Below are positions 6,681 to 11,045 of a stretch of 64,000 nucleotides of DNA, piece by piece (the stretch's first letter is position 1; the number at the start of each line of letters is the position of its first letter). Below the pieces are notes generated by a model that saw only the letters and a list, made by a program, of their open reading frames with translations, did not search any database and was not told the DNA's origin. A program made the translations under genes and the position numbers. Origin of the DNA: Ramlibacter terrae. Lineage in GTDB: Bacteria; Pseudomonadota; Gammaproteobacteria; Burkholderiales; Burkholderiaceae_C. The stretch covers positions 868,001-932,000 of the forward strand of contig CP053418.1 of NCBI GenBank assembly GCA_013127575.1, written 5' to 3'.

Positions 6681-9600
6681 GTGAGCACCGTCATCCCCAT
6701 CGTCCCCCTGCAGGAACACGATGCGCCCCAGCGCGTCGTGAAGGTGCGGCGCGACTACAACAGCTGGGTGGGCAGCGAGACGATGGAAGACTACGCGTTG
6801 CGCTACACGCCGCAGCGCTTCCGCAAGTGGTCGTCCTTCCGCGTCGCCAACACGGCGTTCGGCGCGGCCTCGTTCCTGATCCCGGAGGCGGTCGGCGCCA
6901 CGCTGCTCGTGCAGTACGGCTTCCTGAACGCCTTCTGGGCGATCCTGGTCACCGGCCTGATCATCTTCCTGGCCGGCCTGCCGATCAGCATCTACGCCGC
7001 CCGCTACGGCGTCGACATGGACCTGCTGACGCGCGGCGCCGGCTTCGGCTACATCGGCTCCACGCTCACCTCGCTGATCTACGCGAGCTTCACCTTCATC
7101 TTCTTCGCGCTCGAAGCGGCGGTGATGGCCTATGCGCTGGACCTCGCGCTGGGCATTCCGCCGAGCTGGGGTTACCTGGTTTGCGCGCTGGTCGTGATTC
7201 CGCTGGTCACGCACGGCGTCTCGACAATCAGCAAGCTGCAGGCGTGGACGCAGCCGCTCTGGCTGGTGATGCTCGTGGTGCCTTTCGTGTACGTGATCGT
7301 GCGCGATCCTGGTGCGTTTGCCGGAATCACGCACTACGCCGGTGAAAAGGCGGCTGCAGCGGGCTTCGAGCTGCACCTGTTTGGTGCTGCACTCACGGTC
7401 GGCATCGCTTTGATCACGCAGATGGGCGAGCAGGCCGACTACCTGCGCTTCATGCCGGCGCGCACGGCCACCAACCGCCGCTCCGGTGGCTGGGCGTGCT
7501 GGCCGGCGGACCGGGCTGGGTCGTGCTGGGCGTGCTCAAGATGCTGGGCGGCGCCTTGCTCGCCTACGGCCATCCGCCACATGGTGCCGATCGACCGCGC
7601 GGTCGACCCGAACCAGATGTACCTGGCGGCCTACGAATACGTGTTCCCGCGCTACGGGTGGGCGGTGGCCGCGACGGCGGTGTTCGTCGTGATCTCGCAG
7701 TTGAAGATCAACGTGACCAATGCCTATGCCGGCTCGCTGGCGTGGTCCAACTTCTTCTCGCGCATCACGCACAGCCACCCCGGCCGCGTGGTGTGGGTGG
7801 TCTTCAACACGCTGATCGCCTTCATGCTGATGGAGATGAACGTCTTCCAGGCGCTGGGCGACGTGCTGGGGCTGTACTCCAACATCGCGATCGCGTGGAT
7901 CATGGCCGTGGTGGCCGACCTCGTCGTCAACAAGCCGCTCGGCTGGTCGCCGAAAGGCATCGAGTTCAAGCGCGCGTACCTGTACGACATCAACCCCGTC
8001 GGCGTCGGCGCCATGGCGCTGGCTTCGGTGCTGTCGATCGTCGCCTACCTCGGCTTCTTCGGCACGATGGCGCAGGCGTTCTCGGCCGTCATCGCGATGG
8101 GCGTGGCGTTCGTGACGGCGCCGCTGATCGCGTGGGCCACCGGTGGCCGCTACTACATCGCGCGCGGCGACGGCCGTCCCGCCGGCGGACTCACGCTGCA
8201 GCGCTGCGTGATCTGCGAGCGCGAGTACGAAGGCCCCGACATGGCGCATTGCCCCGCCTACCGGGGGCCGATCTGCTCGCTGTGCTGCACGCTCGACGCG
8301 CGCTGCGGCGACCTCTGCAAGCCGCACGCGAGCCTGGCCGCGCAGTGGTCGGGCGCCATGCGCTGGCTGCTGCCGCGACGCGCCTGGCCTTACCTCGACA
8401 CCGGCCTCGGCCACTTCCTGCTCCTGATGCTGGTCGTGGCGCCGTTGCTGGCTGCGCTGTTCGGGCTGCTGTACCACCGGGAGATGCAGGCCGCCGAACC
8501 CGGCTGGCCGGGCGCCGCCGCGCTGCGCGCCACCTTCATCAAGGCGTATCTCGCGCTGCTGCTGGTCGCCGGCATCGTGTCGTGGTGGCTGGTGCTCGCG
8601 CACAAGAGCCGGCAGGTGGCGCAGGAGGAATCGAACCGCCAGACGCACCTGCTGATGCGCGAGATCGAATCGCACCGCCAGACCGACGAGGCGCTGCAGC
8701 AGGCCAAGCAGGTGGCGGAGCAGGCCAACCAGGCCAAGAGCCGCTACATCAGCGCCATCAGCCACGAGCTGCGCACGCCGCTGAACAGCATCCGGGCTAC
8801 GCGCAGCTGATGGGGAAGACGCCGCGATTCCGCCCAAGCGCAAGCACGCCGTCGAAGTCATCCGCCGCGGCGGCGAACACCTGCTGTCGCTGATCGAAGG
8901 CACGCTGGACATCGCGCGCATCGAGTCCGGCAAGCTCACGCTGAACGTCAAGCCGATGCCGTTCGCGGACCTCGTGCACGAGGTGGCGGGCCTGTTCGAA
9001 TTGCAGGCGGCCGCCAAGGGCCTGTCGTTCCGCTTCGACACGCAAGGCGTCGTGCCGGAAGTGGTGCGCGCCGACGAGAAGCGGGTCCGCCAGATCCTCA
9101 TCAACCTGCTGGGCAACGGCATCAAGTTCACGGCGCGCGGCCGGTGGTCTTTCGCGTCAGCTACAAGCGCGAGATGGCGCTGTTCGAGGTGGAGGACACC
9201 GGCCCGGGCCTGACCGCCGACGAACTGGCGCAGATCTTCGAACCGTTCGCGCGCGGCAACAGTGCCGCCCACTCGGCGCCGGGCGCGGGCCTCGGCCTGA
9301 CCATGGCCAAGATGCTGACCGACCTGATGGGCGGCGAGCTGACGGCGACCAGCACGCCGGGCGTCGGCTCGGTGTTCCGCGTGCGGCTGTTCCTGCCCGA
9401 AGTGCATGCCGGCGTGTTGCCGCAAGTGCGCGCCCCGCAGCTGCGGCGCGCCTACGAAGGCCCGCGCCGCAAGATCCTGGTGGTCGACAACGAGGAGGCC
9501 GACCGCGAGGTGCTGGTGCACCTGCTGGAGCCGCTCGGCTTCGAGCTGCGCACCGCCGCCAGCGGCCACGACGCGCTCGACCTGCTGGCGGCCGGCCTGC

Positions 9601-10102
9601 AGCCCGACGCGATCCTGATGGACCTGGCCATGCCCGGCATCGACGGCTGGGAGACCATCCGCCGGCTGCGCCCGCTCGCGCACGTGCAGGCGAAGGTGGC
9701 GATCGTCTCGGCCAACGCCTTCGACAAGTCGCTCGAGAACGACGTCGGCATCCGGCCCGAGGACTTCATCACCAAGCCCGTGCGGCACAGCGAACTGCTG
9801 GACTGGCTCGAGCGGCAGCTGGCACTGCGCTGGCTGCAGGAGCCGGGGTTGCGGCGCCCGCGCACGCGCCGCAGGCGCCGGCTCTGGCAGTGGCCTTCGG
9901 CCGACCTGCTGGCGCCGCTGCAACAGGCGGTGCAGCTCGGGTACTACCGCGGCATCCTGAACCAGCTCGACGCGATCGACGCGGCGCAGCCCGGTTGCGC
10001 GGGCTTCACCGCGGCGATGCGCGAGCTCGCGCGCAAGTTCCAGTTCGAGGCGATCGCGCGCGCGCTGGCCGGCGCGCAGCCGGCGACGGGGTGGCCTCGT
10101 GA
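6681..10102 (+). CDS. NCS1 permease-Cys-rich domain-histidine kinase-receiver fusion
   Basis: A roughly 1140-residue membrane sensor. Residues about 1-505 are an NCS1 (cytosine/purine/hydantoin) permease with some 12 membrane segments. Residues 508-555 carry ten cysteines, including CVIC and CSLCC, likely a metal-binding knot. Two more membrane helices and a coiled coil ([20 protein letters not shown]) lead to the HisKA box [15 protein letters not shown] (about 694), an ATPase domain ([17 protein letters not shown]) and a receiver from about 931 (ILVVDN, Asp in LMDLAMPG, Lys in ITKPV). The N-box reads [11 protein letters not shown], with Gly where Ala is usual. Starts with GTG. Frame breaks at 7496, 7570, 8794, 8817, 9143 and 10090 mostly restore CCTGG. 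It overlaps the next gene by GTGA. By position it probably senses a purine, hydantoin or urea; this is inference. Confidence 0.85.
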
Positions 10103-11045
10103 GCGCGGTGCTCGATCGCGCCAACAGCGACGTCGTGCTGATCGTCGACGACGTGCCGGACAACCTGTCGGTGCTGCACGACGCGCTCGACGAATCCGGC
10201 TACACGGTGCTGGTGGCCACCAGCGGCGAAGCCGCCCTGCAGCGCGCGGCGCAGGCCGTGCCCGACATCGTGCTGCTCGACGCGATGATGCCGGGCATGG
10301 ACGGCTTCGAGGTGGCGCGCCGGCTCAAGGCGGACAAGCTCACGGCGAACATCCCCATCATCTTCATGACCGGTCTGACCGACACCGAGCACCTCGTGGC
10401 GGCGCTGGAGGCGGGCGGCGTCGACTACGTCACCAAGCCGATCAAGCCGAAGGAGGTGCTGGCGCGCATGACCGTCCACCTGCAGGGCGCCCGGCTCGCG
10501 CGGCAGACGCGCAACGCGCTCGACGCGTTCGGCTACGCGAGCATCGCGGTGCGCGCCAGCGACGGCCGGCTCATGTGGCAGACGCCGCTGGCGCGCGACC
10601 TGCTGGCGGCGTACTACGGCACGTCCGCCCCGGAGACGCCGGCGCCGATCCTCGACTGGCTGCGCCGCCACCTGCGCGAAGCCGAGCGCGACATCGAGCC
10701 GCCGCGCCTCTCCGCCGAACTCGGCGCCCGGCGCCTGAGCATCCGCCTGCATCAGCAGACCGGCGACGACGACTGGCTGATCGTGATGCGCGAGGTGTCG
10801 GACGCGGCCGTGATCGAGTCGATGAGCCTGGCGTTCAAGCTTACGGCGCGCGAAGCCGAAGTGCTCTACTGGGTGGTCAAGGGCAAGATCAACCGCGACA
10901 TCGCGGACATCTTGGGCGCGAGTCCCGCCACGGTGAAGAAGCACTGGAGCGCATCTTCGCGAAGCTGGGGGTTGAGACGCGCACGGCTGCGGCTGGAATG
11001 GCGATGAACCGGATCCGGCAGCTGCATCCGCAGTTTGAAGGGTAG
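10099..11045 (+). CDS. Response regulator, receiver plus LuxR-type HTH
   Basis: The likely partner of the preceding permease-kinase. The N-terminal receiver has VVLIVDDVPDNL, the phospho-Asp in IVLLDAMMPGMDG and the Lys in YVTKPIKP. A middle region of about 110 residues (residues 130-240) resembles a PAS-like linker. The C-terminus is a LuxR/NarL-type helix-turn-helix, KLTAREAEVLYWVVKGKINR to SPATVKKH. A frame break near 10945 restores CACCTGGAG, giving the end LERIFAKLGVETRTAAAG. It starts GTG, overlapping the kinase stop. It probably regulates urease or urt genes nearby. Confidence 0.88.

Follow-up and report, generated by a model that had tools for sequence, protein, structure and literature searches.

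Here we describe a hybrid sensor kinase and its partner response regulator (RR) from Ramlibacter terrae, encoded in a stretch of 64,000 nt of contig CP053418.1 (hereafter the window; G+C 69%; coordinates are window-relative unless another locus is named). A single gene (6681-10091) carries a permease-like region, a cysteine motif, a kinase and a receiver, and is followed by a gene for a LuxR-type regulator (10099-11045), as the original prediction, made from the letters alone, had proposed. The placement of the pair between divergent urease and urt (urea transport) operons was likewise confirmed by Pfam and TIGR matches, and the cysteine motif proved to have eight cysteines (8-Cys motif) instead of the ten first counted. 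The locus comprises:

6681..10091, + strand: hybrid sensor kinase with an NCS1-fold domain, the 8-Cys motif, two further membrane helices, HisKA, HATPase and a receiver (sequence and Pfam; intact homolog P0001)
8205..8318, + strand: 8-Cys motif C-x2-C-x11-C-x7-C-x2-C-C-x5-C-x3-C, a probable zinc-binding module between the transporter and kinase parts (sequence)
8403..8612, + strand: two extra hydrophobic helices leading into the kinase, TM13 (8403-8477) and TM14 (8532-8612) (sequence; helices 560-599 and 601-635 of the orthologue model)
9474..9806, + strand: receiver domain of the hybrid kinase (PF00072, 68.9 bits)
10099..11045, + strand: partner RR with REC and LuxR/GerE DNA-binding domains and a frame shift near 10945 (PF00072, PF00196)
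11918..11933, no strand: predicted operator TACGCCATGTGCCGTA, core TACG-N8-CGTA, centred 83 bp 5' of the urtA ATG (pattern scans)
6656..6669, + strand: sigma-54-like -24/-12 element GGCA-N6-CTGC (GG-N10-GC), ending 11 bases before the annotated kinase GTG (word scan)
12009..13286, + strand: urtA, binding protein of the urea ATP-binding cassette (ABC) transporter (TIGR03407, 580.7 bits; cut-off 492.75)
13395..17880, + strand: urtB, urtC, urtD and urtE (TIGR03408, TIGR03411 and TIGR03410 over cut-off; TIGR03409 (UrtB) below cut-off, frame cut)
1725..6480, - strand: divergent urease cluster with ureG, (ureF/ureE region), ureC, ureB, hupE/ureJ and ureA (Pfam)

Domain organization of the kinase

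The reading frame of the kinase is broken near 7480-7550, 8800 and 9140, and the RR, ureC and the urtB/urtC stretch are also interrupted. The frame breaks led us to reject a single intact kinase protein in the window. Because the homolog P0001, which is 89% identical to the window kinase, is a single protein of 1163 residues, and because the Ramlibacter terrae assembly scores 63.72% complete, we read these breaks as assembly indels.

The permease part displays a LeuT-type fold, for which the closest solved structures are NCS1 proteins; CodB and Mhp1 top the fold list. The NCS1 type named in the original prediction agrees with this fold. In sequence, no match to PF02133 (NCS1) was obtained at E<=0.01, Pfam does not recognise this part of the protein, and a PF02133 search of the Ramlibacter terrae genome did not pick up the window kinase gene. 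A CodB match was weak and below the cut-off. Sequence searches of the PDB gave no match at E<=1 with a 666-residue alignment of the family, none with another NCS1 protein of the Ramlibacter terrae genome, and one irrelevant match with a stand-alone permease that is 31% identical to the sensor domain and does match PF02133. This permease (L217:7949-9439) is possibly a transport-competent relative, and an overlapping frame downstream of it resembles a nitrilase-family protein. Across the family the NCS1 part is strongly conserved.

Between the transporter and the kinase lie the 8-Cys motif, which has short strands, and then two long membrane helices. All eight cysteines are kept in 240 of 240 homologs among the matches listed. 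No Pfam family covers the motif over cut-off (sub-threshold zinc-finger hints occurred, each in one of 25 members), and a PDB sequence search with this domain returned no matches; it is probably a cytoplasmic zinc module. No STAC domain appeared in the Pfam scans, for which the presence of a STAC model in the library was not checked. HisKA, HATPase and receiver domains, the signature of a hybrid histidine kinase, were all found, as were REC and GerE domains in the partner.

Urea and amide genes around the kinase family

The family is very large within Pseudomonadota, with at least 8000 matches at E<=1e-10 (8000 of 8000 candidates scored). At E<=1e-20 the kinase occurs in 50 of 300 genomes of the order and in 52 of 398 of the phylum, two draws that overlap. 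We analysed 177 loci, made up of 176 fetched loci (80 + 96) and the window. The first 80 (L057-L136) are near relatives, the best 80 of at least 579 confirmed ones, and search draws supplied the rest; sequence tests omitted L136 and L228 as too short, which leaves 174 loci and P0001. Neighbours were located by tblastn with the UrtA, UreA, UreC and UreG proteins of the window and Bradyrhizobium-like FmdD, FmdA and AmiE, and gene calls at part of the loci come from a home-made codon score.

Urea or amide genes (urease, urt, an fmdD-type transporter, FmdA or AmiE) lie beside the kinase in 150 of the 177 loci, and the RR is present in 166. Urease and/or urt without amide genes were found at 90 loci, amide genes without urease or urt at 51, both at 9 and none at 27, so that urease or urt accounts for 99 of the 150. 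Control regions, 20 in number and taken from contigs of the same genomes at a distance of about 1 Mb, contained none of these genes (Fisher test, 8e-15, for loci that are not independent). The co-occurrence with urea genes that the original prediction had set as its own test is therefore observed, and its reading of the protein as a transporter-kinase sensor fits. At the level of whole genomes, urease (PF00449, E<=0.001) is present in 48 of 50 kinase-bearing genomes versus 85 of 250 other genomes of the order (Fisher test, 2e-17, not corrected for phylogeny). PF13433 was too unspecific to test co-occurrence, being found in 259 of 300 genomes of the order, and was used only to place urtA genes.

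The usual layout of the amide loci is that of a Bradyrhizobium cluster which a 2010 study ties to the transport of amides, not urea (PMC3098086). Ramlibacter terrae itself carries one sensor of each type: a second NCS1-kinase paralog (C1:130124-131658; L175), broken by indels, lies with fmdD, fmdA and amiE. In three loci from one family, in genomes of 1.7-2.0 Mb (L204, L216 and L224), FmdA, AmiE, urease and the kinase-RR pair share one cluster.

Two amide loci (L155 and L165) form a third class, in which a shorter kinase of 885-894 residues occurs with FmdA. At L155 the FmdA_AmdA and AmiS_UreI families were confirmed; no receiver was found in the kinase, and the genes after it encode a separate REC-HisKA-HATPase protein, FmdA and an AmiS/UreI channel. 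At L165, FmdA and a sequence resembling the same channel were found. These loci represent a third wiring of the same sensor module. No binding protein of the UrtA or FmdD type lies in either 19.5-kb locus, an argument for the NCS1 domain itself as the sensor.

A palindrome before urtA and fmdD

A gapped-word scan of the 400 bp before the kinase revealed the palindrome TACG-N8-CGTA in 40 of 47 loci with a divergent fmdD. An independent look at the 400 bp upstream of urtA gave the same palindrome in 27 of 31 non-redundant urea loci, and in none of one shuffled set. With redundancy kept, it is present within 450 bp in 38 of 42 urtA and 41 of 51 fmdD regions.

The urtA upstreams of other genomes served as a test. 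In genomes with a urea-class kinase and a remote urtA, it precedes urtA in 4 of 6 cases (chance 0.002 per region). It was absent before urtA in all 14 cases where only an amide-class kinase was found and in all 20 where no kinase was found, 'found' here referring to up to 4 candidates scored per genome. Two of the 14 (G133 and G141) match urtA less well (479 and 469 bits versus at least 535), and in G166 the region is cut to 388 bases. Taken together, local and remote sites give 31 of 37 versus 0 of 34 (Fisher test, 3e-14), and remote sites alone 2e-4.

In the window the exact core stands at 11918-11933. Across the Ramlibacter terrae genome the strict pattern TACGYCA-N2-TGRCGTA has 20 sites with up to 2 mismatches, the best single match being the site before urtA. 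Only one of the other 19, C1:131643, retains both halves of the core; it adjoins the second kinase paralog, where the palindrome is degenerate. At the fifth base of the half-site, C prevails before urtA (48 of 76) but T before fmdD (68 of 102), a difference that may keep paralogs apart. From the habit of the LuxR family and from the co-distribution of palindrome and kinase, we infer that the RR binds the palindrome; the CrbR site was likewise inferred first and tested later (PMC5715377).

Most loci in which ureA is divergent from the kinase carry another element. Of 43 non-redundant ureA-kinase regions, 34 have GGCA-N6-CTGC (spacing GG-N10-GC) on one strand or the other, whereas no word exceeded 8 after shuffling; the count of 34 is inflated by the kinship of the 43 regions. 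It points toward the kinase in 27 regions and toward ureA in 8, and if the variable base may be C or T, 34 point toward the kinase. The element resembles the sigma-54 promoter consensus, and its place before the kinase hints at nitrogen control. Its end often falls within 15 bases of the assumed kinase start, which leaves the start codon or the function uncertain.

Other features of the window lie close by. The urease cluster was identified by ureA (PF00547), HupE/UreJ (PF04955), ureC (PF00449/PF01979) and ureG (cobW), with ureB, ureE and ureF assigned from position and sequence, without a family match. A hemerythrin-domain gene (11197-11925, - strand; PF01814) lies between the RR and urtA. 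The kinase-RR pair is flanked by two long palindromic elements (6511-6645 and 11061-11194) with the common core CGGGAGCGGACT.CCGGAACGCAGAGGGCGCA.A and arms of 59 nt at 88% and 34 nt at 100%; they are probably copies of a dispersed repeat.

Ligand choice, mechanism and related systems

Urea and amide contexts alternate on the family tree, switching six times by an approximate parsimony count (quick FastTree with long branches; rows more than 90% identical dropped, leaving 136 of 175). A residue common to all urea clades was sought, and column 409 (P0001 numbering), in TM10 of the transport core, was the best, imperfect candidate. Counted over all 174 loci (an earlier residue search had omitted the amide loci L066, L195, L155, L165 and L175), this column is Gly in 46 of 51 amide-context sequences and in 2 of 89 urea-context sequences, the latter having 72 Met, 5 Cys, 4 Ser, 3 Ala and 3 Thr. 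The amide exceptions are A, A, Q, M and M; Q is the indel-broken Ramlibacter terrae paralog, and both M lie inside urea clades. Of the nine mixed loci, the three that fall on the amide side of the tree carry Gly, L203 (which shares 96% identity with a sequence from that side) carries it too, and the remaining five, on the urea side, carry Met or Ile. Ligand choice in Mhp1 is governed by how TMH10 closes, with Leu363 (PMC4195764), a loose parallel to column 409. The column 409 pattern supports, without proving, the idea that the NCS1 domain itself reads the ligand.

We consider it likely that the kinase and RR are a two-component system of the transceptor type for urea, belonging to one branch of a wider urea and short-chain amide family, and that the RR turns on uptake through the palindrome. 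The NCS1-fold domain would bind urea from outside or in transit, and formamide- or acetamide-like amides in the sister clades. Movement of the NCS1 core would then pass through the cytoplasmic 8-Cys module and the two-helix hairpin to the kinase, phosphate would travel from His to the Asp of the fused receiver and/or of the separate LuxR-type RR, and the RR on TACG-N8-CGTA would switch on urtABCDE, or the fmd operons in sister clades. The order of domains, the NCS1-like fold, the neighbourhoods and the joint distribution of palindrome and kinase are computational results; the steps that link them are proposed. Urease, which the original prediction had placed under this sensor, is probably controlled by another route: the predicted operator lies before urtA or by fmdD. 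An operator for loci with a divergent ureA was rejected because none of 55 regions before the kinase has the palindrome; the words enriched in a first scan resemble ureA coding sequence, and the region was re-cut.

Three other explanations have to be set against direct sensing of urea and amides. The NCS1 domain could be a docking or structural part of a kinase that reads the flux of the ABC transporter, or loaded UrtA or FmdD, in the manner of Bce-type flux sensors. Binding-protein operons are indeed the operator targets and very regular neighbours, and flux sensing by BceS through a separate ABC transporter is described in PMC8534201. We nevertheless regard this as unlikely, given the high conservation of the NCS1 part and the third class without such a binding protein in its two loci, although the protein may lie elsewhere (G388 has a second, amide-type locus, L156). 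Alternatively, the domain might sense a product or a broader nitrogen signal (ammonium, formate or intracellular pH), or a nucleobase, with the urea and amide genes as regulated output only. The sigma-54-like element before the kinase, the cytosine and hydantoin transporters that are the closest solved relatives, and a deep clade (L219 and L220) without nearby urea genes speak for it; that column 409 in the transport core tracks the substrate class of the neighbouring genes speaks against it, as does the outcome of inspecting the gene calls by eye, short of a systematic search, which turned up no purine gene. On balance we hold it to be rather improbable. The proposal made at the outset, in which the protein senses purine, hydantoin or urea flux, receives a nickel or redox signal by way of the cysteines and acts on urease, draws on the urease genes that adjoin the kinase in the window and in many Comamonadaceae, and now appears scarcely tenable. 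A purine or hydantoin context was rejected, purine genes having been sought by eye: the recurrent neighbours are urease, urt, the fmd-type ABC transporter, formamidase, aliphatic amidase and, in the third class, AmiS/UreI, and the operator is absent from every region with a divergent ureA. A nickel or redox input tied to urease was rejected because the 8-Cys motif is equally invariant in amide-linked members, beside FmdA or AmiE only; many such genomes have urease elsewhere, so nickel sensing through the cysteines is weakened, short of exclusion.

Several results weigh against a urea and amide transceptor acting through this palindrome. Besides the silence of Pfam on the permease part, 7 of the 47 amide regions have no palindrome, nor do 4 of the 31 regions before urtA and 2 of the 6 remote urtA genes; it occurs in 0 of 55 regions with a divergent ureA and 3 of 72 other regions. 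Taken alone, the window site is at chance level (5 sites with up to 1 mismatch in 64 kb versus 6.8 expected), and a reversed control pattern has more sites in the genome than the strict pattern (90 versus 20). The urea sequences at column 409 come from about four origins, one of them mixed. Finally, 27 of 177 loci have no urea or amide neighbours. A contig end is no more than 1.8 kb away at 8 of them, 5 stand in genomes that carry urease elsewhere, 12 more are in genomes of which 10 have urease and 2 do not, and L219 and L220 form the deepest clade. In this clade no urea or amide genes were found nearby and no urease in the genome, and these deepest members may sense something else. They are about 1400 residues long, with the same NCS1 and 8-Cys parts and an Hpt output, plus a PAS domain in L219 and two receiver stretches in L220.

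Known systems offer partial parallels. CrbS/CrbR, which governs acetate use, also has a transporter fused to a hybrid kinase, a separate LuxR-family RR and an imperfect inverted repeat before its targets (PMC5715377). It combines SLC5 with a STAC four-helix linker, whereas the window family has an NCS1-like fold, the 8-Cys motif, two extra membrane helices, urea and amide targets and another palindrome. CbrA of Pseudomonas, an SLC5-STAC-PAS kinase transceptor for histidine, likewise joins a transport fold used as sensor to a kinase (PMC13022988), but with another transporter family and STAC in place of the Cys module; its two-helix partner CbrX is a separate peptide, whereas the two helices are fused in the window family. 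With the STAC link absent and an NCS1-like fold, the window kinase does not appear to be an SLC5/STAC kinase (CbrA and CrbS compared through PMC13022988, PMC4834066 and PMC5715377). Ks-Amt5, an ammonium transporter joined to a histidine kinase, is similarly a nitrogen-compound transporter fold turned sensor (PMC8534201), with the Amt fold and ammonium instead of the NCS1 fold and urea or amide genes. The NCS1 transporters Mhp1 and CodB (14-17% identity), which carry hydantoins and cytosine, have no kinase. The same kinds of transport and hydrolysis genes occur in fmdCABDEF of Methylophilus methylotrophus and in the control of amiE by AmiC/AmiR, for which the accessible text of PMC13209695 names FmdB or the AmiC/AmiR antiterminator as regulators and mentions no sensor kinase.

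Among transporter-kinase fusions, themselves a known kind, the combination of an NCS1-like fold with an 8-Cys linker appears to be new. Database labels of family members read only hybrid kinase or purine-cytosine permease-like. Open-access titles and abstract openings, a scope that does not show absence from print, contained no account of an NCS1-kinase family, of such a urea-responsive kinase or of this regulator at urt or fmd operons. So far as we could see from them, this is a large and coherent sensor family, undescribed and with a testable function. Whether it amounts to an entire class of transceptor kinases, in which the NCS1 fold would be a direct receptor for urea and short-chain amides, a new 8-Cys module would replace STAC, ligands would have switched repeatedly through a TM10 position and one operator code, TACG-N8-CGTA, would be shared, seems to us an evenly balanced matter. 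Urea is a main nitrogen fertiliser and a common nitrogen source in soil and water; the way in which most Proteobacteria sense it is not known to be established. The analysis provides a testable candidate membrane sensor, with a partner regulator, a DNA site and a candidate specificity residue, for a family of thousands. With it, a further fold joins SLC5 and Amt among the few transporters fused to kinases, and a new case is at hand for comparing how transport movement becomes a phosphorylation signal.

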